NCBI GenBank assembly: GCA_003551985.1
Contig: PUOB01000416.1
Location: forward strand, 1 to 11,136
DNA from: Desulfobacteraceae bacterium
GTDB taxonomy: Bacteria > Desulfobacterota > Desulfobacteria > Desulfobacterales > Desulfosalsimonadaceae
Reading direction: 5' to 3'
DNA length: 11,136 nt
The notes under the pieces were generated by a model that was not told where the DNA came from, ran no database searches, and worked only from the letters and a program-made list of their open reading frames with translations. Position numbers and translations under genes: made by a program. Shown here piece by piece: positions 1-11,136 of the stretch (position 1 is the first letter of the stretch; each line of letters starts with the position of its first letter).

Positions 1-279
1 ACGCGCCTGGTCTGCCCGGAAGCCAATATTCCGGCGACGACCGCCCTGGCCACGATCAGCGCCGCTGACGGCATAAAGAAAGGGCTTACGCGGGGGGCAA
101 ATGTCGTGATGCCAAACCTGACCCCCCCGACGTACCAGCGGCTCTACGCGGTGTATCCGGGCAAAGCCTGCATTTCAGACAATGGCGCTCATACGGAAGC
201 TGACGGGGTTCACCGGTGGATATCTGAAATCGGCCGCAGCGTGGGCTCCGGGCAGGGGGGCCGCCGGCATGGTCCATAA
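1..279 (+). CDS. hydE: HydE, [FeFe]-hydrogenase H-cluster radical-SAM maturase (C-terminal part only)
   Basis: The open frame runs in from the left edge and stops at TAA 277-279, leaving the last 92 residues. The conserved C-terminal HydE block is plain: ANIPATTALAT (residues 9-19), then RGANVVMPNLTP (31-42), then the Y/YPGKAC segment ending at Cys57. HydE is a radical S-adenosylmethionine enzyme that works with HydG and HydF to build the diiron subcluster of [FeFe]-hydrogenases; its CxxxCxxC radical-SAM motif would lie upstream of the window. In Thermotoga HydE an auxiliary Fe-S cluster is held by three C-terminal cysteines. Here only the first (Cys57) is present and the other two positions are non-cysteine, a known kind of variation since that cluster is reported as dispensable. 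The tail ends Gly/Arg-rich, as in other HydE proteins. Its place next to hydCBA fits a hydrogenase maturation and structural locus. Biotin synthase-like or PylB-like relatives are less likely because of the ANIPATTALAT/GANVVMPNLTP pair. Confidence 0.92.
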   Translation, partial: TRLVCPEANIPATTALATISAADGIKKGLTRGANVVMPNLTPPTYQRLYAVYPGKACISDNGAHTEADGVHRWISEIGRSVGSGQGGRRHGP

Positions 280-371: not shown

Positions 372-581
372 CGACCGTTGAACGCTTGAAATGCCTTCAT
401 GCCGGTTTCGGCAAGATCATTGATAAATCCAAACTCGTGCAGCCGTTGGGGAACGGTACAAAAAACCCGTAGTGAATCGGAGACGCAACCTGACTGTTTA
501 CGAAGCCGCAAAATAATGACGGATAGAGGCTTTTTTCGGGAATATCAATTTGGTCGGGAACATCAATTAAAAGGGGGGCCT
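372..581 (+). other. Non-coding leader of the hydCBA transcript (predicted)
   Basis: This stretch between the predicted start point and hydC has no convincing gene. It holds three small potential RNA structures: TGCCG/CGGCA with a GTTT loop (400-413), CCGTT/AACGG with a GGGG loop (443-456), and AAGCC/GGCTT (503-507 with 528-532) followed by a T run (531-536). The last resembles a weak intrinsic terminator or attenuator, but its stem is only 5 bp with a 20-nt loop. No known riboswitch was recognised. The ribosome binding site AAGGGGGG (571-578) lies just before the hydC ATG. The length of the leader is the main reason to suspect post-transcriptional control. Confidence 0.4.
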
Positions 582-1109
582 ATGAAACCGATTCCAGTTG
601 GGCAGCAGGCGGCTGCAGACGAATTTACCCCGGAACAATGGGGGAAAATCGATGCCGTGATTGCAGCATACCGAGGCAAACCGGGGGCGCTGATTCCCGT
701 GCTGGAAGAAGTCCAGGGAATCAGCGGGTATCTGCCGGAAATCGTCCAGCGCCGTGTGGCCGGGGGACTCGGAATTCCCTTGTCCCAGGTCTACGGTGTG
801 GTCACGTTTTATTCCTTTTTTACCATGAAACCCCGGGGCAGGCACCAGGTGCGGGTATGCCTGGGAACGGCATGCCATGTGCGGGGCGGACACCTGCTGG
901 AAAAAAAGATCTCACAGGGCCTGCGAATTCAACCGGGCGAAGTGGACAAGGACCGGCTTTTCAGCCTGGAAATCGTCCGGTGCGTAGGGGCCTGCGGGCT
1001 GGCGCCGGTCGTGGTGGTGGATGATGACACCCACAAGCAGGTCAAGGCGGCCAGGGTGGAAGAGATTCTTGATGGCTACCGAAACAGGGAGGAGGAACGC
1101 TATGCTTGA
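582..1109 (+). CDS. hydC: HydC, NuoE-like [2Fe-2S] subunit of NAD(P)-linked [FeFe]-hydrogenase
   Basis: A 175-residue protein of the NuoE/HydC (24 kDa, thioredoxin-like ferredoxin) family, about the usual length. It has the N-terminal helical bundle (residues 15-60), the family motif YGVVTFYSFF (71-80), and four [2Fe-2S] ligands: Cys93 and Cys98 (CLGTACHVRGG) and Cys134 and Cys138 (CVGAC). In HydABC complexes this subunit docks to the NuoF-like subunit, and its cluster is thought to exchange electrons with or near the FMN. The ATG at 582 was chosen because it follows a strong Shine-Dalgarno (AAGGGGGG, 571-578) and because the family-like sequence begins there; the frame is open upstream to 399, but that part is unlike the family and would cover the leader. 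The 3' end overlaps hydB by 8 nt. It is the first gene of the structural operon behind the sigma-54 promoter. Confidence 0.94.
   Translation: MKPIPVGQQAAADEFTPEQWGKIDAVIAAYRGKPGALIPVLEEVQGISGYLPEIVQRRVAGGLGIPLSQVYGVVTFYSFFTMKPRGRHQVRVCLGTACHVRGGHLLEKKISQGLRIQPGEVDKDRLFSLEIVRCVGACGLAPVVVVDDDTHKQVKAARVEEILDGYRNREEERYA
1086..1095 (+). promoter_or_regulatory. Ribosome binding site deciding the hydB start
   Basis: AGGGAGGAGG lies inside the end of hydC, 6 nt before ATG 1102. The hydB frame is open further upstream (to 1021), but only the 1102 start has this site, and it starts the protein right at the thioredoxin-like domain. hydC stops at 1109, so the two genes overlap by 8 nt and are probably translationally coupled. 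Confidence 0.8.
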
Positions 1110-4100
1110 AAAAATCACATCGCTTGAGGCATTGCAGGACATTGCCCGGCAGGTGGCACAGGATCATCAGAAATACCGCCTGCGTTTGATGGTTTGCGGA
1201 AGCAATGACTGCCACCTGACCGGAAGCAATGAAATCATTGACGAATTTCAAAAACAGATCCAGCAAAGAAATCTTGAAGATCAGGTCCAGGTGGTGGCAA
1301 CCGGATGCATCGGTTCGTGTTCCATGGGCCCTGTCATGACCGTCTGGCCCGAGGATATTTTCTACATGAAGCTGCAGCCGGCAGATGTCGCGGAAGTGAT
1401 GGACAGCCACGTGGAAGGCGGCCATCCGGTCGAACGCCTCATGTATCATGATCCGAACACCGGCCAGGCGATTGCCCATAGTGCGGACATCCCGTTTTTC
1501 GCCCGACAGCATGCTATTGTCCTTGGCAACAAGGGGCTCATCGACCCTGAAAGCCTCCGGGATTATATCTGGCAGAACGGCTACCAGGCCCTGCATAAAT
1601 GCCTTACAGCGCTGTCCCCCGAAGAAATTATCGCTGAAGTCAAAGCCGCCGGACTTCGCGGCCGGGGCGGCGGCGGTTTTCCATCGGGCTTGAAGTGGGA
1701 ATTCTGCGCCAACACCAAAGGCGACGTCAAGTATGTGCTGTGCAACGCGGACGAAGGAGATCCCGGGGCGTTCATGGACCGGCGCATCATGGAAGACGAC
1801 CCGCACGCCATTCTGGAAGGCATGGTTATCGGGGCCAAAGCCATCAATGCCAGCCAGGGGTATATTTACTGCCGGGCGGAATACCCCCTTGCGCTGGAGC
1901 GCCTGTATGCGGCCCTTGACCAGGCCAGGTCCATGGGGCTTCTCGGAAAAAACATCATGGGAACGGGTTTTGACTTCGATATAGAGATTTACAAGGGGGC
2001 CGGCGCCTTTGTATGCGGCGAGGAGACCGCCCTTATGACTTCGATCGAAGGCAAGCGCGGCACACCCAGACCCCGCCCCCCCTTTCCCGCCATATCCGGT
2101 TTGTGGGGAAAACCCTCGATTCTCAACAACGTGGAAACATGGGCGACCGTTCCCCGGATTCTTTTTGACGGCGGGGACGCCTATGCAAAAATCGGCACGG
2201 AAAGCTCCAAGGGCACCAAGGTGTTCGCCGTTACCGGCAATATAAACAATATCGGGCTGGTGGAAGTCCCCATGGGCACATCCATCGGCGAGATCATCTT
2301 TGACATCGGCGGCGGCGTCTCAGGTGGCAAACAATTCAAGGCGGCCCAGCTCGGCGGGCCATCGGGCGGGTGCGTGCCGGCCGCGTACCTGAACCTGCCC
2401 ACGGATTACGAGGCCATTGTCAAGGCCGGCGCCATCATGGGCTCCGGTGGCCTGATCGTCATGGACGAAGATACCTGCATGGTGGACATGGCCCGCTATT
2501 TCATGGATTTCTGCCAGGACGAATCCTGTGGCAAGTGCACCCCCTGCCGTGTGGGAACAAAACGGATGCTGCAGATCGTTGAGAATATCTGCAAGGGGGA
2601 GGGCCGGCCCGAAGACCTCGACCTGCTGGAAAGCCTGTCGCACACCATCAACGATGCCTCCCTGTGCGGCCTGGGTCAGACGGCTCCGAACCCGGTCCTT
2701 AGCACCCTCAAGTATTTCATGGACGAATACAGGGCCCATATCGAAGATAAAAAATGCCCCGCCGGTGTTTGCGCGGATCTTTTTACAAGCCCCTGCCAGA
2801 ATGCCTGCCCCGTGGAAATGGATATTCCGGCCTATATTGCTTTGGTACGGGCCGGCCGCCTGGCGGACGCCTACAAGGTGCTCAAGCGGACCAACCCGTT
2901 TCCGGGCGTCTGCGGAAGGGTCTGCGGCCATCCCTGCCAAAGCAAATGCAGACGATCGCAGCTCGACGAAGCGCTCGCCATCAAAAACCTCAAGCGGTTC
3001 ATCACCGATTATGTGCCGCCGCTTCGGCCTGAGCCAATTCCGGTCGTTCATCCCGAAAAAATCGCCGTTATCGGGGCCGGTCCCGCCGGCATGACCGCGG
3101 CGCTGGAAATGAAAAAACGCGGCTACGCGGTGACAGTATATGAAGCGCTGTTCGAAGCGGGCGGCATGCTGCGATGGGGCATTCCTGAATATCGACTGCC
3201 CAGGGAGATCCTGGCCCGGGAACTCCAGGAGATTCTGGATACGGGTGTAGTGCTCAAAACCAACGTCAAAATAGGGGAGGATATATCGTTTGACGATCTG
3301 AAATCGGACCATGACGCCGTTTATATCGGCATCGGTGCACAAAAAAGCTCACCCCTCGGGCTTTCCAACGAGAGTGCAGCCGGCGTGATCGGCGCTGTCG
3401 AATTTTTGAGAGACTATACCATGGGCAAGGATGTCTGGGTGGGCAAACGGGTGGCCGTCGTCGGCGGGGGAAACTCGGCCATCGATGCCGCCCGGACCGC
3501 CCTCCGGCTGGGGGCCGAGTCGGTGACGATACTCTACCGGCGGGAGCGAAAAGACATGCCGGCCCTTGAGGCGGAAGTCAAGGCGGCGGAAGAAGAAGGC
3601 GCCGTCATCGATTTCCTGGTTGCGCCCCTGGAAATCGGTGTTTCCGATGGAAGCATAAAGGGGCTTACGCTTCAGCGAATGCGGCTGGGCGACTTCGATG
3701 CAAGCGGCCGCCGCCGCCCCAGGGCCATAGAGGGCCAAATCGTCGAGATGGAAATCGATATGCTCATTCCTGCAATCGGTCAGCAGGCCGAGCTGGACTT
3801 TCTTTCCCCGGCGACACAAATCGATGACAACACAAAAGACACCGTTGCCATTGATGCCGGCGGGAACACGATCCTCGTAAACAAGGATTATTCAACGGAT
3901 CATGCCGGCGTCTGGGCCGGTGGCGACATTGTAACCGGGCCGGCCATGGTCATCGACGCCATTGCCGCAGGGCAAAAAGCCGCCGTTTCCATGGACCGGG
4001 CACTTCGGGAAGCCAAGGGGGAACAGCCCTGGAAGGAGACAGAGGACAAAATTGAAATCCCTGTCGAGGTGGACGAGGAGGTCGAAACGCTCTTGCAAAT

Positions 4101-4230
4101 CCGGATCCGGGAATTGTCTACGGCGGAAAGAAGCCGGAATTTCAGCGAAGTTGAGTTGGGATACGACGAGGATATGGCCCTGCGCGAGGCAAGACGCTGC
4201 ATTCGCTGCGATGTGAAAACAGAAGCATAA
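1102..4230 (+). CDS. hydB: HydB: NuoF-like NAD(H)/FMN subunit fused to a GltD/NfnB-like FAD/NADP(H) oxidoreductase
   Basis: A 1042-residue fusion. Residues 1-95 are a thioredoxin-like [2Fe-2S] domain with Cys32, Cys37, Cys69 and Cys73. Residues about 130-545 are NuoF-like: FMN/NADH loop RGRGGGGFPSGLKW (186-199), NADEGDPGAF (215-224), GAGAFVCGEETAL (299-311), SLBB-type GGPSGGC (418-424), and the [4Fe-4S] ligands Cys476, Cys479, Cys482 and Cys522. His546, Cys552 and Cys557 resemble the hinge before the C-terminal part of HydB, where bifurcating complexes carry zinc. In place of the usual two-cluster ferredoxin domain, residues 565-1042 are GltD/NfnB-like: Cys565/Cys569, Cys604/608/612/616, FAD motif GAGPAG (658-663), second dinucleotide motif GGGNSA (788-793) with YRR at 812-814 typical of NADP(H) binding, and AGGD (939-942) near the second flavin. 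The tail carries Cys1033/Cys1036. It lies between hydC and hydA and should be the cytoplasmic electron-distributing subunit. NADPH use is inferred. Confidence 0.95.
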   Translation: MLEKITSLEALQDIARQVAQDHQKYRLRLMVCGSNDCHLTGSNEIIDEFQKQIQQRNLEDQVQVVATGCIGSCSMGPVMTVWPEDIFYMKLQPADVAEVMDSHVEGGHPVERLMYHDPNTGQAIAHSADIPFFARQHAIVLGNKGLIDPESLRDYIWQNGYQALHKCLTALSPEEIIAEVKAAGLRGRGGGGFPSGLKWEFCANTKGDVKYVLCNADEGDPGAFMDRRIMEDDPHAILEGMVIGAKAINASQGYIYCRAEYPLALERLYAALDQARSMGLLGKNIMGTGFDFDIEIYKGAGAFVCGEETALMTSIEGKRGTPRPRPPFPAISGLWGKPSILNNVETWATVPRILFDGGDAYAKIGTESSKGTKVFAVTGNINNIGLVEVPMGTSIGEIIFDIGGGVSGGKQFKAAQLGGPSGGCVPAAYLNLPTDYEAIVKAGAIMGSGGLIVMDEDTCMVDMARYFMDFCQDESCGKCTPCRVGTKRMLQIVENICKGEGRPEDLDLLESLSHTINDASLCGLGQTAPNPVLSTLKYFMDEYRAHIEDKKCPAGVCADLFTSPCQNACPVEMDIPAYIALVRAGRLADAYKVLKRTNPFPGVCGRVCGHPCQSKCRRSQLDEALAIKNLKRFITDYVPPLRPEPIPVVHPEKIAVIGAGPAGMTAALEMKKRGYAVTVYEALFEAGGMLRWGIPEYRLPREILARELQEILDTGVVLKTNVKIGEDISFDDLKSDHDAVYIGIGAQKSSPLGLSNESAAGVIGAVEFLRDYTMGKDVWVGKRVAVVGGGNSAIDAARTALRLGAESVTILYRRERKDMPALEAEVKAAEEEGAVIDFLVAPLEIGVSDGSIKGLTLQRMRLGDFDASGRRRPRAIEGQIVEMEIDMLIPAIGQQAELDFLSPATQIDDNTKDTVAIDAGGNTILVNKDYSTDHAGVWAGGDIVTGPAMVIDAIAAGQKAAVSMDRALREAKGEQPWKETEDKIEIPVEVDEEVETLLQIRIRELSTAERSRNFSEVELGYDEDMALREARRCIRCDVKTEA

Positions 4231-4241
4231 GGGAGGATATC

Positions 4242-5969
4242 ATGGTAGCATTGACAATTGACAACCTGGCGGTAGAGGTCCCGGAAGGGACCACCATCCT
4301 GGAGGCCGCCGGAAGTGCGGGAATCCACATCCCGACGCTTTGCGCCCTCCCCGAAATTCATCATAACCCCGGCGCATGCCGGGTCTGCATGGTTGAAGTC
4401 GACCGGGCCCGCACGCTGGTGGCAGCCTGCGTCTACCCGGTGGCAAACGGCATGAAAGTTAAAACCAACAGCCGGCGGGTGCGGGAAGCCCGGCAGGGGG
4501 TAATGGAATTTCTGCTCTCCGACCACCCGCAGGACTGCAACATCTGCCAGAAACACGGCAACTGCGAGTTACAGCAGGTCGCCGAACAAATCGGAACACG
4601 CGATATAACAGTGCCCCGGACGGACTTTACCGTCCACGACATCGACGACCGGTCCGAGGCCCTGGTTCGGGATGGATCCAAGTGCATCAACTGCCTCCGC
4701 TGCGTAACCGTCTGCGACCAAATCCAGGCGGTAAATCTGCTCACGCCCGAAGGGCGCGGTTTTGATTCCCGGATCGTACCCGCCATGGGACACAGCCTGG
4801 CCGATTCCGCCTGCACGTTCTGCGGCCAGTGCGCGGTGGTATGCCCCACCGGCGCCATCGTTGAAAAAGACCACACGAATCTCGTCTGGACGGCGCTGGA
4901 AGACCCATCAAAGCATGTGGTGGTCCAGGAGGCGCCGGCCATCCGGGCCCAACTCGGCGAAGCGTTCGGGATGCCCCCCGGCACGCTGGTGACGGGCCAA
5001 ATGATTACCGCGCTCCGGAGACTTGGGTTCGACCGGGTGTTCGACACCAACTTCACCGCGGACCTGACCATTATCGAGGAGGGCCACGAGCTGCTCGAAC
5101 GAGTCAAAACCGGCGGTGCGCTGCCCATGATCACCTCGTGCAGCCCGGGATGGATCAAGTTTATCGAACACTTCTACCCGGAACTGATCCCGAACCTCTC
5201 CACGTGCAAGTCGCCCCAACAGATGTTCGGCGCCCTGGCCAAGACGTATTATGCGGAAAAGGAGGGCATCGACCCGGCGGACATGGTTGTTGTCTCCATC
5301 ATGCCGTGTACGGCCAAGAAATACGAGGCCGCCCGGCCCGAAATGAACGCCTCCGGCTTTCGGGATGTGGATGTGGTGTTGACCACCCGTGAACTCGGCC
5401 GCCTGCTCCGGCAGGCGGGGATCGATCTGAAAAACCTGCCGGAAGGCGATTACGATCCGCCCATGGGAGAATACAGCGGGGCCGGAACGATTTTCGGTGC
5501 CACCGGCGGGGTTATGGAAGCCGCCCTCAGAACCGTCTATGCGGTGGTAACCGGCAAAAACCTCCCGGACCTGAACATTGAAGCCGTAAGGGGGCTCGAA
5601 GGCATCAAGCAGGCGGGGCTAGTCATCGGTGAACTGGGAGAGGTCCGGGCGGCGGTTTCCCACGGGCTGGGCAACGCCCGCACCATTATGGACCAGATCG
5701 CCTCCGGTCAGGCCGACTACCAGTTCGTCGAGATCATGGCCTGCCCGGGCGGGTGCGTCGGCGGGGGCGGACAGCCGCTGCCGGCCACCAATGAAAAGCG
5801 AAGGCTCCGGGCCGACGCCCTATACCGCGACGACGGCGAGGTACAGCGCCTCCGGCAGTCCCATGAAAACCCGTCGATCAAAGCCATCTATGACGACTTT
5901 CTCAAGGCACCGCTGGGGGAAAAATCCCATCACCTGCTCCATACCCATTATACGGCAAGAGAGGTTTGA
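4242..5969 (+). CDS. hydA: HydA, catalytic [FeFe]-hydrogenase subunit (multi-cluster, NuoG-like N-terminus)
   Basis: 575 residues, close to HndD/HydA length. It contains an N-terminal [2Fe-2S] domain (Cys34, 46, 49, 63), a His-Cys [4Fe-4S] site (His95, Cys99, Cys102, Cys108), and two ferredoxin-type [4Fe-4S] clusters (Cys148/151/154/158 and Cys191/194/197/201). The H-domain has L1 TSCSPGW (298-304), L2 MPCTAKKYE (354-362) and L3 EIMACPGGCVGGGGQP (497-512), and the C-terminal small-subunit-like region ends at HYTAREV. The enzyme interconverts H2 with protons and electrons at the H-cluster and passes electrons to HydB/HydC and ferredoxin. L1 has Ser301 where the textbook motif is TSCCPGW; I recall this variant from HndD-type subunits. 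There is no signal peptide, so it is cytoplasmic, and no extra C-terminal [2Fe-2S] domain as in the longer Thermotoga HydA. The start at 4242 follows GGGAGG (4231-4236), 11 nt after hydB. Confidence 0.97.
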   Translation: MVALTIDNLAVEVPEGTTILEAAGSAGIHIPTLCALPEIHHNPGACRVCMVEVDRARTLVAACVYPVANGMKVKTNSRRVREARQGVMEFLLSDHPQDCNICQKHGNCELQQVAEQIGTRDITVPRTDFTVHDIDDRSEALVRDGSKCINCLRCVTVCDQIQAVNLLTPEGRGFDSRIVPAMGHSLADSACTFCGQCAVVCPTGAIVEKDHTNLVWTALEDPSKHVVVQEAPAIRAQLGEAFGMPPGTLVTGQMITALRRLGFDRVFDTNFTADLTIIEEGHELLERVKTGGALPMITSCSPGWIKFIEHFYPELIPNLSTCKSPQQMFGALAKTYYAEKEGIDPADMVVVSIMPCTAKKYEAARPEMNASGFRDVDVVLTTRELGRLLRQAGIDLKNLPEGDYDPPMGEYSGAGTIFGATGGVMEAALRTVYAVVTGKNLPDLNIEAVRGLEGIKQAGLVIGELGEVRAAVSHGLGNARTIMDQIASGQADYQFVEIMACPGGCVGGGGQPLPATNEKRRLRADALYRDDGEVQRLRQSHENPSIKAIYDDFLKAPLGEKSHHLLHTHYTAREV

Positions 5970-6008: not shown

Positions 6009-6413
6009 ATGGAAAAACAACATGAAATCCTGGTCGTGGATGACGACATCGACATTCGCGACGTACTCCGCATTGTTCTGGAAAAAAACGGTTACAAGGT
6101 ACGGCTTGCCAAAAACGGCAAAGACGCGGTAAAAGAACTCCAGGCAAAACAACCCGACCTGATGGTGCTCGATATCATGATGTCCACCGACACGGAAGGA
6201 TTTGACCTGGCCTTTGAACTCCGGAACAACCCGGAATTTGAAAACATGCCCATTATTTTGCTGACCAGCTTCCTGGAAAAGGTACGGGAGGACGGGCCGG
6301 ATCAATTTCAGCATATCCTGGGGGAAGAGTGGCCGGCCAAATGGATGTTCGAAAAACCCCTGAATACGGAAAAGTTTCTGAAAAAACTTGAGGGGATCCT
6401 GGGAAACGCATAG
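6009..6413 (+). CDS. Stand-alone receiver (CheY-like response regulator)
   Basis: 134 residues, a single receiver domain with no output domain. The acidic pocket is Asp11-Asp12, the phospho-acceptor is Asp55 (MVLDIMM), the switch residue is Thr86 (LLTS), and the conserved lysine is Lys116 (EKP). Between Thr86 and Lys116 the loop is longer than in CheY (about 30 residues, with GPDQF and EEWPAKW). Such a protein can only act by phosphotransfer or by protein-protein contact, so it is likely a relay or sink for one of the kinases encoded just downstream. It is separated from hydA by 39 nt and has its own ribosome binding site (AAGGAGA) before ATG 6009. The family is certain; its partner is not. 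Confidence 0.94.
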   Translation: MEKQHEILVVDDDIDIRDVLRIVLEKNGYKVRLAKNGKDAVKELQAKQPDLMVLDIMMSTDTEGFDLAFELRNNPEFENMPIILLTSFLEKVREDGPDQFQHILGEEWPAKWMFEKPLNTEKFLKKLEGILGNA

Positions 6414-6457: not shown

Positions 6458-8371
6458 ATGAAAATGCGGCTACCCGGTACGAAACAGTCCGTTTCAGGCG
6501 GCGTTCCTCCCCCCTTGTTTCTTGAAGAACTCAAGGATCGCAGCCGCTGGTTCGTCTTTTTGCGTCTCATCGTTCCGCCGGGCATATTGATTGCTGCCGG
6601 GATCGCGCACCTGCTTGGCTACCGGTTTCACATCCCGGCGATCCTTTTAATTGCCGGGATGATTTTCGCCTACAACCTGGTCTTTCTATTATGGATCCGG
6701 AGGATGTCGCCGGGACAATGGCAATCGCCCGAGGGCATCGCAAAGTTTACCTACTGGCAGCTCGGGGCGGATTACGGCGCCCTGCTGCTGCTTATCTATT
6801 TTACGGGGGGAGCGGCCAGCCCGGTCCTCTTTTTTTTCATTTTTCATATCATCCTTGCCGCAATGCTGCTTCCCCGGATATACGCCTATATTTTTGCTAT
6901 CGCCGTCGCAGCCGGCGTATTTCTGATCAACCTGGCGAAAAACCTGGGATGGGCGCCACTCCACCAGGTGTATTACGGCGCCGAACCGGTCCTTATGCCC
7001 TGGCAGACGCCCCTTTTCATGCCGCACCTGCTGTTTTTCACCGCCTCGCTTTTGATAACGGCGTTTCTGGCCACCACGATCATGCGCTTGTTTTACCTGC
7101 GTGTCCGTGAGCTGGATGCACAAACCGACAACCTTGCGGCATATAACGAACGCTTTACAACGCTTTTTTCCCTGGTTGAAGCCATGGGCGCTTTCCGCCA
7201 GCTCGATCCGGTCCTGGAGGTCGCAACCCGGGAGCTGGCATCTGTTATGGGTGTCAGGGCCATTTCCGTCAAGCTCCTGAGCGAAGACGGTGTCTGGCTG
7301 GTTTACAGAGGAAATTTCGGTCTGCCGGAAACATTCGTCCAAAAAAAATCGGTGGAAGTAAAAAAAAGCCCTTTAAACCAGAGGATCATAGAAGGCGAAG
7401 CGTTTGTTACCGGTGATGTCAGCCGCCCGGAAATGTTCCAGTTCGGCGAAGACCTGGCGGCCGCCCGCATCCGGTCCGTCCTGTTCGTACCCATGGTCGT
7501 CGAGCAAAAAACCATCGGCGTGCTTGGCGCCTACTGCCGCATTCCGGGCCGGTTTTCCCGGAACGACATATCCTTCTTCAGGCTGGCCGCCGGCCTGGTA
7601 GCCATTGCCATTGAAAATTCCAGGTCCTATGAGGCCATAGAAAACTTCACTGCGGAACGCTCCCGGTTCATGCTGCGGGTCGCCCACAATCTCCGGGCAC
7701 CGCTGGGAGCGGTTCTCGGCATGCTCGAACTGCTCCGCGAAGAGCACATGGGTTCCCTTACAGCGGAGCAGGCCGAATACCTGCGCCGGGTTGACCGGCG
7801 CACCCGGACCATGCTGGACATGATCAACCAGCTGATGACCCTGGCCACGAGTCGCACAACGCTCCGGCAGCCGGAAAAGACCAGCCTGGATGTATATTGG
7901 CTTGCCGGCCGCGTGGAACGCACCTTCCAGAGCATGGCCGCGGAGCGAAACATCGATTTCGCTGTCCGTGCATCAGACGGTGTGCCGCCTGTATCGGGAA
8001 ACGCGGACCAAATCGAGCAGGTCCTTGAAAACCTGGGGTCAAACGCAATCAAGTACACCCCCGAAGGCGGAAGGGTTCGGATTTTGTTTTCATCGCCGTC
8101 TGCTAACAAGATCATGATCACGGTGACAGATACCGGCATCGGCATTGCCGAAAACGACCTCTCACAACTGTTTTCAGAGTTTTTCCGGGCGGACAACGCA
8201 CGGGAAAAAGAAGAACTCGGAACCGGGCTGGGTCTTGCCATTGCCCGGGAAATCGTGGAATCGCACCAGGGCCGGATAACCGTGGAGAGCCGGGAAGGGC
8301 GCGGCACCACATTTGCGGTCACCCTCCCCGCCGCAGGAGGTGACAAAGGAAACACCCATGCTGGTAAATGA
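6458..8371 (+). CDS. Membrane sensor histidine kinase: six helices (RegB-like), GAF, HisKA, HATPase
   Basis: 637 residues. Six hydrophobic helices (roughly 31-53, 59-80, 100-116, 120-138, 140-160, 187-210) surround a TGGAASPV motif (116-123) that resembles the GGxxNPF quinone-binding motif of RegB/PrrB redox kinases. A short linker leads to a GAF domain (about 233-390). The kinase core follows: phospho-acceptor His410 in AHNLRAPLG (409-417), N-box near Asn525/Asn529, G1 DTGIGI (558-563) and G2 GTGLGLA (588-594). The residue after the histidine is Asn411, where most HisKA kinases have Glu or Asp. The protein has no receiver of its own and is likely to signal to the receivers at 6009 and/or 10421. 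The ATG at 6458 follows GGGGAGGA (6443-6450). The gene contains three 8-base homopolymer runs. It overlaps the next gene by 14 nt. The stimulus is unknown; membrane redox state is an inference from the RegB-like motif. Confidence 0.93.
   Translation: MKMRLPGTKQSVSGGVPPPLFLEELKDRSRWFVFLRLIVPPGILIAAGIAHLLGYRFHIPAILLIAGMIFAYNLVFLLWIRRMSPGQWQSPEGIAKFTYWQLGADYGALLLLIYFTGGAASPVLFFFIFHIILAAMLLPRIYAYIFAIAVAAGVFLINLAKNLGWAPLHQVYYGAEPVLMPWQTPLFMPHLLFFTASLLITAFLATTIMRLFYLRVRELDAQTDNLAAYNERFTTLFSLVEAMGAFRQLDPVLEVATRELASVMGVRAISVKLLSEDGVWLVYRGNFGLPETFVQKKSVEVKKSPLNQRIIEGEAFVTGDVSRPEMFQFGEDLAAARIRSVLFVPMVVEQKTIGVLGAYCRIPGRFSRNDISFFRLAAGLVAIAIENSRSYEAIENFTAERSRFMLRVAHNLRAPLGAVLGMLELLREEHMGSLTAEQAEYLRRVDRRTRTMLDMINQLMTLATSRTTLRQPEKTSLDVYWLAGRVERTFQSMAAERNIDFAVRASDGVPPVSGNADQIEQVLENLGSNAIKYTPEGGRVRILFSSPSANKIMITVTDTGIGIAENDLSQLFSEFFRADNAREKEELGTGLGLAIAREIVESHQGRITVESREGRGTTFAVTLPAAGGDKGNTHAGK
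8345..8350 (+). promoter_or_regulatory. Ribosome binding site deciding the start of the hydrogenase-like sensor kinase
   Basis: AAAGGA ends 7 nt before ATG 8358. A stronger AGGAGG lies at 8335-8340, but it is 17 nt from the ATG and would not suit the in-frame GTG at 8340, which it overlaps. An in-frame ATG at 8313 lacks a good site. The ATG at 8358 places translation start 14 nt inside the previous gene, suggesting coupling. Confidence 0.6.
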
Positions 8372-10379
8372 TCTGCACCCATTGGTACAAACCATCCCGG
8401 ATTCGTGCCGGGCGTGCTACACCTGCGTCCGGGAATGCCCGGCCAAGGCCATCCGGATTTCATCGGGCCAGGCCGAGGTTCTCGTGGAACGGTGCATCGG
8501 GTGCGGAAACTGCTTCCGGGTCTGCTCCCAGAGCGCCAAGCAGGTATACAACTCCATCGGAGAAGTCCGGGAGCTGCTGAATTCAGACGCTTCGGTTGCA
8601 GCCATCCTGGCCCCCAGCTTTCCGGCGGTTTTCGATGAAACCGGATATCGCCGGGTGGTCGGCATGCTACGCGTCCTGGGATTCAAGACGGTTCACGAAG
8701 TCGCCTTCGGCGCGGACCTGGTGGCACGCCGTTACCGCCAGTTGATGACAGACTATCCGAAACGGCGTTTCATCGCCACCACCTGCCCCGCGCTGGTCGA
8801 ATATGTCCAGCGTTTTCATCCCGCCCTGGCGGGTTATCTCGCGCCCGTGGTATCCCCCATGCTGGCCACGGCAAGGGTTTTGCGAAGCATGCACGGGCAA
8901 GCGCTTCGCATTGTATTTGTTGGCCCGTGTATCGCTAAAAAAGCCGAACAAGACCCGGACCGTCCACACGAAATCAACGGCGTACTGACTTTTATCGAAC
9001 TCCAGCAAATGCTGGATGCGGAAGGAATATCGCCGGAATCGGTCATTCGCAGTGAATTCGACGCCCCCCCCGCATCGCAGGGCGCCCTGTTTCCCATCAG
9101 CCGGGGGCTGCTTCAGGCGGCAGACATCAGTGAAGACCTGATGGCCGGGGAAGTGGTGTCGGCAGACGGCCGCCGGGATTTCGCGGAGGCGATCAAGGAA
9201 CTGGAGTCGGGCGCCCTGGATGCCCGCCTGCTGGAGGTTCTGTGCTGCGACGGCTGTATCATGGGGCCGGGCATCCAAAATGATTTGCCCCTGTTTCACC
9301 GGCGAAGCCTCGTCAGCCGCTATGTCCGGCGGCGTTATGCCGAAATCGGAAACGATTCTCCGGAAAAATGGGCGGACCGGTTTGCCGGCCTGGACCTGTC
9401 CCGGCGATTTCCCGCCAGGGAATATCCCATGAAGCGCCCGACCGAGGAAGAAATTCTGGACATCCTGCGGCGCATGGGAAAGTCTGGACCAACCGATGAA
9501 CTCAACTGCGGGGCTTGCGGCTATGAAACCTGCCGGGACCATGCGGAAGCCGTATGGCTCGACCTGGCGGAATCGGAAATGTGCCTGCCCTATACCATTG
9601 AGCAACTGCGCAGGACCCTGGCGGAACTCGACCGCTCCAGGGAGGAACTCGCAGGCGTCCAGGCGGCCCTGATCCAGTCTGAAAAGCTGGCCAGCATGGG
9701 GCAGCTATCAGCCGCGATCGCCCACGAGATCAACAACCCCCTTGGCGTTGTTCTGATGTACGCGCACATGCTGCAGGAAGACTGCCCGGAGGATTCGGCC
9801 ATGCGGGAAGACCTGAAAACCATCGCCGAACAGACCGACCGCTGCAAGAAAATCGTGGCCAGCCTGCTCAACTTCGCCCGGCAGAACAGGGTCATGCATC
9901 AACCGGTGGACATCAACGAAGTGGCTGAACGATGCCTCCGCTCCGTTCCGCTTCCCGAAAACATTGCCATATCCATTATACGGGATATCGAGGACACCAT
10001 AGCCGAACTCGACGCCGACCAGATCAACCAGGTTCTCGTCAATCTGGTTTCCAATGCAGTAGAAGCCATGCCCGAAGGCGGTACGCTGGCCCTTACTACC
10101 AGCGGCACGGAACAACACGTCTGCTTTACCATCACGGATACGGGCTGCGGCATTCCGGAGCAAAATCAACACAAGATCTTCGAACCGTTTTTTACCACCA
10201 AGCAAGTCGGACGGGGCACCGGATTAGGTCTGGCGATCAGCTATGGCATCATCAAAATGCACAACGGGGATATACAGGTGACCTCCAGCGCCGATCCGTC
10301 CGCAGGCCCAACGGGCAGCACATTCACCATTACGATTCCCCGAACGGCACAGCAGAGGCATCTGCCGGCAAGACCGTAA
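8358..10379 (+). CDS. Sensory [FeFe]-hydrogenase-like protein fused to a histidine kinase (HydS-like)
   Basis: 673 residues, no membrane helix, so cytoplasmic. Order: two ferredoxin [4Fe-4S] motifs (Cys17/20/23/27 and Cys46/49/52/56); an [FeFe]-hydrogenase-like domain (about 75-345); a four-cysteine Fe-S domain (Cys384/387/392/409, PF04060-like); a helical linker (about 413-445); HisKA with His456 in AHEINNPLG; and HATPase (N-box Asn562/Asn566, G1 DTGCGI 594-599, G2 GTGLGL). The three H-cluster motifs are recognisable but altered: TTCPAL (141-146) for TSCCPGW, GPCIAKKAE (189-197) for MPCxxKxxE, and CCDGCIMGPG (296-305) for MACxxGCxxGGG. Cys143, 191, 296 and 300 align with the four H-cluster ligands, but the proton-transfer cysteine is replaced by Thr142. 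This fits the histidine-kinase-linked sensory (group C) hydrogenases, thought to sense H2. I see no PAS domain between sensor and kinase. Likely targets are the neighbouring receivers. Confidence 0.93.
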   Translation: MLVNDLHPLVQTIPDSCRACYTCVRECPAKAIRISSGQAEVLVERCIGCGNCFRVCSQSAKQVYNSIGEVRELLNSDASVAAILAPSFPAVFDETGYRRVVGMLRVLGFKTVHEVAFGADLVARRYRQLMTDYPKRRFIATTCPALVEYVQRFHPALAGYLAPVVSPMLATARVLRSMHGQALRIVFVGPCIAKKAEQDPDRPHEINGVLTFIELQQMLDAEGISPESVIRSEFDAPPASQGALFPISRGLLQAADISEDLMAGEVVSADGRRDFAEAIKELESGALDARLLEVLCCDGCIMGPGIQNDLPLFHRRSLVSRYVRRRYAEIGNDSPEKWADRFAGLDLSRRFPAREYPMKRPTEEEILDILRRMGKSGPTDELNCGACGYETCRDHAEAVWLDLAESEMCLPYTIEQLRRTLAELDRSREELAGVQAALIQSEKLASMGQLSAAIAHEINNPLGVVLMYAHMLQEDCPEDSAMREDLKTIAEQTDRCKKIVASLLNFARQNRVMHQPVDINEVAERCLRSVPLPENIAISIIRDIEDTIAELDADQINQVLVNLVSNAVEAMPEGGTLALTTSGTEQHVCFTITDTGCGIPEQNQHKIFEPFFTTKQVGRGTGLGLAISYGIIKMHNGDIQVTSSADPSAGPTGSTFTITIPRTAQQRHLPARP

Positions 10380-10420: not shown

Positions 10421-11136
10421 ATGGAAACACTGAAACTGCTTATCGTCGACGATGAAACCGCCATGGGAAAAGCGGTGGAACGGAGCCTCCGAAACTACAA
10501 AGTGTACGTGCCGGAAGTCGACCTGGATGTGGACTATCGGGTCGAGCACGTGGAAACGGGGGAAGCGGCCGTGGCGATCATCGATAACCGTCCCCCGGAT
10601 ATCCTGCTGCTTGACAACAAGCTGCCGGGAATTTCCGGCATGGAAATTCTTTCTCATCTGTGCGAAAAACCCCGCGACCTTCTCACGGTCATGATCACCG
10701 CGTACGCCTCCCTGGAAAACGCCATTGCAGCCACCCGTCGCGGAGCCTATGACTTTCTGGCCAAACCCTTCACACCGGAAGAGCTGAAGGGAATCGTCTA
10801 CCGAACCACGAAACACCTGCTTTTATGCCGCCATGCGGAAAAAATGGCCCGGGAGAAACACCGGATACGCTTCGAATTTCTGTCCGTTCTGGCCCATGAA
10901 CTCAAATCGCCCCTGGCCGCGGTGGCCCAGTACCTGGAACTTATACGGACCGCGGATCCGGCCGCCGAGGCCGGGTTCATCCAAAAAGCGGCGGATCGCT
11001 GCCTTGAGCGGATCGGGGACATGCGCAAACTTATTCTGGACCTGCTCGATGTTACGCGCCTGGAGTCCGGCCAACGTCCCCGGCAGATACAAAGCGTGGA
11101 CATTGTCCGGGCGGCGGAAAAATCGCTGGAAGCCAT
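10421..11136 (+). CDS. Receiver-histidine kinase hybrid, N-terminal part (runs off the window)
   Basis: The frame is open from ATG 10421 to the window end, 238 complete codons without a stop. A receiver domain comes first: Asp10-Asp11, phospho-acceptor Asp65 (ILLLDNKLPG), Thr93 (MITAYAS) and Lys115 (AKPF). It is followed by a charged linker and a HisKA domain with His159 in AHELKSPLAA. The ATPase domain must lie beyond 11136. The receiver is NtrC/atypical in look, with an insertion of roughly ten residues (about 28-40) before the second strand. An N-terminal receiver on a kinase usually takes phosphate from an upstream kinase and modulates the attached one, so it could integrate signals from the two sensor kinases before it. 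GGAG at 10409-10412 precedes the start; 41 nt separate it from the previous stop. An NtrC-type regulator is excluded by the HisKA domain. Confidence 0.9.
   Translation, partial: METLKLLIVDDETAMGKAVERSLRNYKVYVPEVDLDVDYRVEHVETGEAAVAIIDNRPPDILLLDNKLPGISGMEILSHLCEKPRDLLTVMITAYASLENAIAATRRGAYDFLAKPFTPEELKGIVYRTTKHLLLCRHAEKMAREKHRIRFEFLSVLAHELKSPLAAVAQYLELIRTADPAAEAGFIQKAADRCLERIGDMRKLILDLLDVTRLESGQRPRQIQSVDIVRAAEKSLEA

Follow-up and report, generated by a model that had tools for sequence, protein, structure and literature searches.

The window analysed here is an 11,136-nucleotide stretch of DNA from a Desulfobacteraceae bacterium, and its subject is a [FeFe]-hydrogenase operon in which the HydB subunit is fused to a GltD/NfnB-like flavoprotein. 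All genes lie on the forward (+) strand, in the order hydE (cut by the window edge), hydC, hydB-gltD, hydA, a response regulator, a GAF-domain kinase, a sensory-hydrogenase-like kinase and a response regulator-kinase. The hydC gene (576..1109) encodes a NuoE-like, thioredoxin-like [2Fe-2S] protein (PF01257, 164 bits) with Cys95/100/136/140. Its stop codon (TGA, 1107-1109) overlaps the start of the hydB-gltD fusion (1102..4230), a single open frame of 1042 amino acids with its ATG at 1102 and its stop at 4228-4230. The hydA gene (4242..5969) begins 11 bases past the end of hydB; its product, the catalytic subunit, has the P1/P2/P3 motifs and scores above the NCBIfam cut-off for group A6 [FeFe] hydrogenases (NF040763, 884.2 vs. 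765 bits).

The domain layout of HydB confirmed the central observation of a preliminary description of this DNA. An intact NuoF-type half is followed, from about residue 561, by a GltD/NfnB-like module in place of the ferredoxin domain, and Pfam and PDB alignments agree on this point. The first half comprises an N-terminal thioredoxin-like [2Fe-2S] domain (1171..1404; PF01257, 41.7 bits; Cys32/37/69/73), an FMN/NAD(H) domain (1639..2157; PF01512, Complex1_51K, 159 bits) with GRGGGG at residue 187, and a [4Fe-4S] domain (2485..2739; PF10589, NADH_4Fe-4S, 125 bits) with Cys476/479/482/522; an SLBB match between the latter two falls under its Pfam cut-off. The module opens with a Fer4_20 domain holding two [4Fe-4S] sites (2761..3012; PF14691, 83 bits; Cys565/569/604/608/612/616) and continues with a GltD-like FAD/NADP(H) domain (3058..3972; PF07992, Pyr_redox_2, 84.8 bits). 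The latter contains the FAD motif GAGPAG (residues 658-663; 3073-3090), Arg698 (3193-3195), the second dinucleotide motif GGGNSA (788-793; 3463-3480) and YRR (812-814; 3535-3543), and the frame ends with a CIRC pair, Cys1033/1036 (4198..4209). The FMN loop, the NuoF cysteines, both dinucleotide motifs and YRR stand where they had been placed before. The Complex1_51K, NADH_4Fe-4S, Fer4_20 and Pyr_redox_2 scores are all well over the curated Pfam cut-offs, and the Pfam scan of HydB found no ferredoxin-type Fer4 family other than Fer4_20.

A misjoined or chance frame was ruled out, as the full-length fusion recurs in other metagenome-assembled genomes (MAGs) and in the cultured Dethiosulfatibacter aminovorans. 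Our protein search covered the 7999 candidates with the most shared words, every one of which scored E ≤ 1e-50, and the best 120 of these are mostly about 1000-1054 amino acids long. In an alignment of 72 rows the six module cysteines C565/569/604/608/612/616 are invariant, as is Arg698, the counterpart of StnC R239 and NfnB R201; C1033 and C1036 are at least 90% conserved. The proposed second nucleotide site also held up, with the GxGxxA motif joined by a YRR whose positions 812/813/814 are kept in 120/119/120 of the best 120 of 7999 homologs.

The point at which the two halves meet could be placed exactly. The linker HIEDKKCPAGVC (2737..2772), aligned to solved HydB/StnB chains, carries His546, Cys552 and Cys557 and leads into GltD. 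These three residues are invariant in the 72-row alignment, in 120 of the best 120 of 7999 homologs and in 47 of 47 fusion loci, which were hand-chosen and are not a random sample. In solved relatives we take the linker, with its metal-binding residues, to be held by a metal site and then followed by a ferredoxin-like domain. Seven PDB chains of the HydB/StnB type align with the window HydB up to residue 558-564 and not beyond, and the first GltD cysteine lies 8 residues past the His/Cys/Cys linker. Among the canonical rows listed, the linker pattern was matched in 10 of 23, with the ferredoxin-domain CxxCxxC 12-13 residues on in 8 of these; in canonical L031 and L032 the motif after the linker differs, yet a Cys stands at 13. 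By alignment, then, the GltD module starts at the usual starting point of the ferredoxin domain, 8 residues past the linker. With the linker kept and GltD in that position, the enzyme of the window has exchanged a putative ferredoxin port for one of the NADP(H) type. For StnABC, the C-terminal B3/B4 domain of StnB/HydB has been described as the putative ferredoxin exit, to which electrons come by way of the NuoE-like subunit and its swinging [2Fe-2S] (PMC10482914). There is no more than a hint that the GltD Fe-S region and the canonical ferredoxin domain overlap in space: alignment ranges (not an overlay) reach residues 575-628 of a structural model for seven chains retaining the ferredoxin domain. 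Separately, two other loci (L109 and L110) carry tandem hydrogenase operons, HydCBA and then directly HydC, HydB-GltD and HydA, and the short HydB in each (547 and 536 amino acids) ends where the ferredoxin domain would start.

Sequence comparison assigns the GltD module of HydB to the Stn type. Lys631 (2992..2994), the equivalent of StnC Lys170, occupies a position that is Glu in NfnB (4ylf_B) and GltD (2vdc_G), and the CxxC pair forms a C-terminal tail, with its NfnB counterpart at the N-terminus of the module. Residues 8-43 of 4ylf_B align to the C-terminal end of the HydB module, and StnC aligns collinearly. The likeness to Stn drawn in the preliminary description proved to be close. However, an NfnB-type bifurcating FAD was rejected as the favoured reading because residue 631 is Lys and not Glu: the Glu ligand of the NfnB proximal cluster is not present in HydB, the equivalent of StnC K170 is, and the FAD of StnC is reported to be non-bifurcating (PMC10482914). 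Modules of this kind were also seen in other settings. At L133 (2991-6443, minus strand) a 1151-amino acid HydA carries a StnC-like GltD near its N-terminus (109-581), then an H domain (699-1048) and, at the C-terminus, a thioredoxin-like [2Fe-2S] match, a layout indicating that GltD is also joined to a [FeFe]-hydrogenase catalytic subunit. H-domain frames of comparable size (1152-1196 amino acids), known by length alone, occur in G212, G240 and G263. In L007 and L008, both Aminicenantes loci, GltD is followed by a long tail of low complexity, rich in Glu, Lys and Pro.

We also examined the distribution of the fusion in two phylum samples of genomes. At a threshold of E ≤ 1e-28, 140 of 395 genomes had a junction match in the sample from the phylum to which L001, a Desulfobacteraceae MAG, belongs, and 73 of 398 in the sample from that of D. 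aminovorans (Bacillota); the matches include frames of roughly 560-830 amino acids, which are incomplete fusions or cut by contig ends. Among the 47 hand-chosen loci, 13 had a [FeFe]-hydrogenase as neighbour, 21 a molybdopterin protein resembling formate dehydrogenase (FDH), 3 a NiFe large subunit and 2 a Glu_synthase-domain protein; the neighbour was unassigned in the other 8. The FDH label derives from the molybdopterin domains that Pfam found in a few members and from similarity to these, with formate as the presumed substrate, and L125 was reassigned by hand from this type to NiFe. Several of the FDH-like partners (L116:6332-9067, minus strand, and those of L114, L118, L126, L130 and L131) lie in two frames of about 360 and 543 amino acids, split inside the molybdopterin domain. 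At L116 the split is due to one stop codon in frame, which may stand for selenocysteine, and a formate/nitrite transporter gene follows. At L097 and L103 the B-subunit-GltD fusions adjoin a short [2Fe-2S] NuoG-like protein and the Glu_synthase-domain protein, possibly a link to glutamate synthesis.

A quick maximum-likelihood tree of the NuoF core (73 rows) was built without L006 (truncated), L009 (NuoF match too short) and L036-L040 (distant NuoF, ≤400 bits). The window falls in a 7-row clade (98, starred), all FeFe, within a 28-row fused clade (99, starred) that mixes FeFe, FDH and NiFe neighbours; FeFe locus L108, for example, is sister to FDH locus L127 (99, starred). Fusions occur elsewhere in the tree too, among canonical proteins. 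On this tree 8 changes of the fused label are required, of which starred branches force at least 5; gain and loss are indistinguishable, and one of the 8 involves L011, which is labelled canonical and is really a split fusion whose NuoF part and GltD are separate neighbouring frames. Replacement of the ferredoxin domain, or its return, has therefore probably occurred on more than one occasion.

What kind of enzyme would this be? We consider it probable that the operon encodes a three-pool enzyme (H2, NAD(H), NADP(H)) of the HydABC type, one whose HydB has had its low-potential port exchanged and which works without ferredoxin. The domain swap, the exact junction, the cluster ligands, the Stn-type Lys and tail and the recurrence beside other electron-input partners are established, and from them we infer cofactor occupancy, NADP specificity, electron path and direction. 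Electrons from H2 would enter at the HydA H-cluster and pass to the FMN of HydB, where NAD+ would be reduced; a second branch would lead from the [2Fe-2S] sites of HydB and HydC through the linker to the two GltD [4Fe-4S] clusters, the FAD and NADP+. Every step would be reversible. The HydBC core (FMN, [2Fe-2S] sites, [4Fe-4S] site and linker) is intact, and the overall reaction would be 2 H2 + NAD+ + NADP+ <-> NADH + NADPH + 2 H+, with no ferredoxin. At low H2 the enzyme would run toward H2. The two branches would be either gated by the swinging [2Fe-2S] domain of HydC (true bifurcation) or equilibrating.

Published E' values (NAD -280, NADP -380, ferredoxin -500 and H2 -414 mV; PMC9304861) allowed the energetics to be computed. 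The H2 balance lies at 145 Pa for NADH plus NADPH; NADH by itself gives 3 Pa, and NADH plus ferredoxin 15.5 kPa. At 1000 Pa, H2 reduces NAD+ downhill (-14.4 kJ/mol) but NADP+ only uphill (+4.9 kJ/mol), and coupling would let the first reaction drive the second. With H2 at 10 Pa the two add up to +13.3 kJ, a balance at which the enzyme would rather form H2. A shallow bifurcation would thus be energetically meaningful. Only tentatively do we go further and suggest that a gated HydBC core splits electrons from H2 (in relatives, from formate or a NiFe enzyme) between NAD+ at FMN and NADP+ at the Stn-type GltD, as a ferredoxin-free branch of the Bfu family in which the exit was perhaps swapped repeatedly during BfuB evolution.

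Several points weigh against a three-pool hydrogenase of this kind. As both nucleotides lie near -300 mV, the NAD/NADP pair gives less thermodynamic need for bifurcation than ferredoxin does, and ferredoxin could dock on HydA or on the clusters of GltD instead. Lys at position 631 was also found in 8 of 8 other GltD-bearing proteins of the set and is thus a mark of the permuted GltD class as a whole, not of this enzyme in particular. The survey of such fusions beside hydA, called for by the preliminary description, gave divided results. In the second phylum at least 53 of 73 genomes have an H-cluster domain (E ≤ 1e-70) no more than 6 kb from the fusion, a count that includes G792 solely through a short 663-amino acid frame. 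In the first phylum, however, such a domain (E ≤ 1e-50) was found in at least 25 of the 140 junction-match genomes and within 6 kb in at least 20, so the fusion there is mostly not part of a hydrogenase, although contig ends hide some neighbours. CLE stands in place of YRR in 5 of the 21 FDH-type fusions (L094, L098, L099, L100 and L113); NADP binding is therefore no constant of the wider fusion family and is doubtful in those five. MTHFR-type genes were recognized by Pfam only in L104, a YRR-bearing relative of the CLE fusions, and frames of similar size follow in L094, L098 and L113. Finally, 30 of the best 120 of 7999 homologs and 3 of 13 FeFe loci lack Cys37 of the N-terminal [2Fe-2S] site, and this cluster is thus not essential in the family.

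The loss of Cys37 is also consistent with an ungated NAD(P)-dependent hydrogenase, in which H2, NADH and NADPH equilibrate without bifurcation and the module adds NADP(H) and slip transhydrogenation. The E' values of NAD and NADP are close together, as such an enzyme would have it, and the HydB of S. wolfei, which is without B3/B4, is active yet non-bifurcating (PMC11406978, PMC9304861). However, in the window none of the four N-terminal [2Fe-2S] cysteines has been lost, and neither have the cysteines of HydC or the linker; the linker residues are invariant in the set, and Hnd bifurcates despite lacking the N-terminal cluster (PMC7483475). We regard an ungated enzyme as rather unlikely.

More doubtful still is the four-pool hub of the preliminary description, in which H2, NAD(H), NADP(H) and ferredoxin are coupled and the FAD of GltD bifurcates as in NfnB. 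Its NADP(H)-type site and its likeness to Stn stood, and the GltD/NfnB fold with FAD, the invariant Arg698 and a possible FAD bifurcation centre proposed by the authors of PMC11406978 speak for it. Its ferredoxin pool and bifurcating FAD were not supported: GltD has taken the place of precisely the putative ferredoxin port, which weakens the proposal, residue 631 is Lys and not Glu, and no NfnA-like gene was seen in a Pfam scan of the window's frames. Least credible is a module that exchanges electrons with a partner protein, glutamate synthase or some other, and not with NADP, as the Glu_synthase-domain neighbours at L097 and L103 and the CLE of five FDH-type fusions might suggest, but the Pfam scan saw no glutamate synthase gene in the window and YRR and GxGxxA are conserved among close homologs.

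The remaining genes of the window concern maturation and, apparently, control. At the left edge lies the 3' end of hydE, encoding the H-cluster radical-SAM maturase (1..279); its partial TIGR03956 match (64.7 bits, model 256-337 of 340) is under the whole-protein cut-off because the gene is clipped. Downstream of hydA, a response regulator receiver protein (6009..6413; PF00072) is followed by a GAF-domain histidine kinase (6458..8371; Pfam), which recurs with the response regulator in operons of relatives. A response regulator likewise follows the fused hydBA in relatives, and the order is kept in L001-L005, L009, L029 and L096. Next comes a sensory-hydrogenase-like histidine kinase (8358..10379; Pfam) with two [4Fe-4S] sites, an H-domain with the cysteine motifs TTCP, PCIAKK and CCDGCIMGPG, an FeS domain and HisKA/HATPase domains, and this kinase, downstream of the response regulator and GAF kinase, is probably an H2-sensing control unit for the operon. 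A response regulator-histidine kinase (10421..11134, start approximate; PF00072, PF00512) is cut by the right edge.

If the three-pool reading is true, NADPH and not ferredoxin is the electron partner of many anaerobe hydrogenases and FDH-like complexes, a large and common group often annotated merely as "NADH-quinone oxidoreductase subunit F". Models of H2 and formate flux would then change for sulfate reducers, syntrophs and clostridia, and H2 formation driven by NADH plus NADPH would be expected to stop at an intermediate H2 level of about 145 Pa. Such enzymes also offer a natural test of bifurcation by the HydBC core, as the core is unchanged and the low-potential exit is different.

The fusion architecture itself is already published, which the preliminary description did not mention, and it is common. 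As the preliminary description had supposed, open-licence PMC papers yielded no biochemical demonstration of what the fused module does, and they yielded no description of its fusion with FDH or NiFe partners; the available main text of the Bfu-family paper (PMC9304861) does not mention GltD, glutamate synthase or a fusion. The label "glutamate synthase-linked" does not apply. HydDB defines that group, A2, by an adjacent downstream protein with a GltD-type domain but not NuoF, and we rejected it since a response regulator lies downstream of hydA and the GltD-bearing protein lies upstream and carries NuoF.

Compared to HydABC of T. maritima, A. woodii and T. kivui, the window is alike in HydA, HydC and HydB to about residue 560, over which HydB is 48-65% identical to solved HydB chains; however, the solved enzymes end in a C-terminal ferredoxin-like domain that HydB of the window lacks. 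NfnAB (T. maritima 4ylf, P. furiosus 5jca) shares the GltD fold with its Fe-S, FAD and NADPH sites, but T. maritima NfnB has Glu at the position of Lys631 and an N-terminal CxxC segment. StnABC of Sporomusa ovata (PMC10482914; 8oh5) shares a HydBC-like core and a GltD module with the proximal-cluster Lys and the C-terminal CxxC tail. In Stn, however, GltD sits on the NuoG-like StnC and StnB retains its ferredoxin domain, whereas in the window GltD replaces that domain, HydA retains its H-cluster domain and there is no GltD-NuoG fusion subunit. The ligands described for the Bfu family (PMC9304861) of FMN, B1, the N-terminal [2Fe-2S] and the HydC [2Fe-2S] are all present, and the domain of the ferredoxin-interacting B3/B4 clusters is missing from HydB in both Pfam and PDB alignments.

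The closest match is BfuABC sub-type I of Hydrogenedentota and relatives, reported in 2024 in mSystems (PMC11406978), in which the B3/B4 domain of BfuB is replaced by DPD_II and an FAD/NAD(P) domain and HydA is without a C-terminal [2Fe-2S] (M3a type). HydB of the window has this layout by Pfam and PDB alignments, its HydA agrees in type as well, and relatives are also named in Thermodesulfobacteriota (Syntrophus gentianae, Desulfotignum balticum). The window differs in its order C-B-A without BfuD, followed by the response regulator and GAF kinase. No bfuD gene lies between hydC, hydB and hydA, but BfuD is generally lacking in several related phyla (PMC11406978), so its absence does not exclude membership of sub-type I. 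To the published architecture we add the exact junction, the Stn type of the module and the occurrence of fusions beside FeFe, FDH-like, NiFe or glutamate synthase-like genes. The authors of sub-type I lay weight on a second FAD that may bifurcate; what was found in the window points instead to an FAD that serves as Stn-type wiring.

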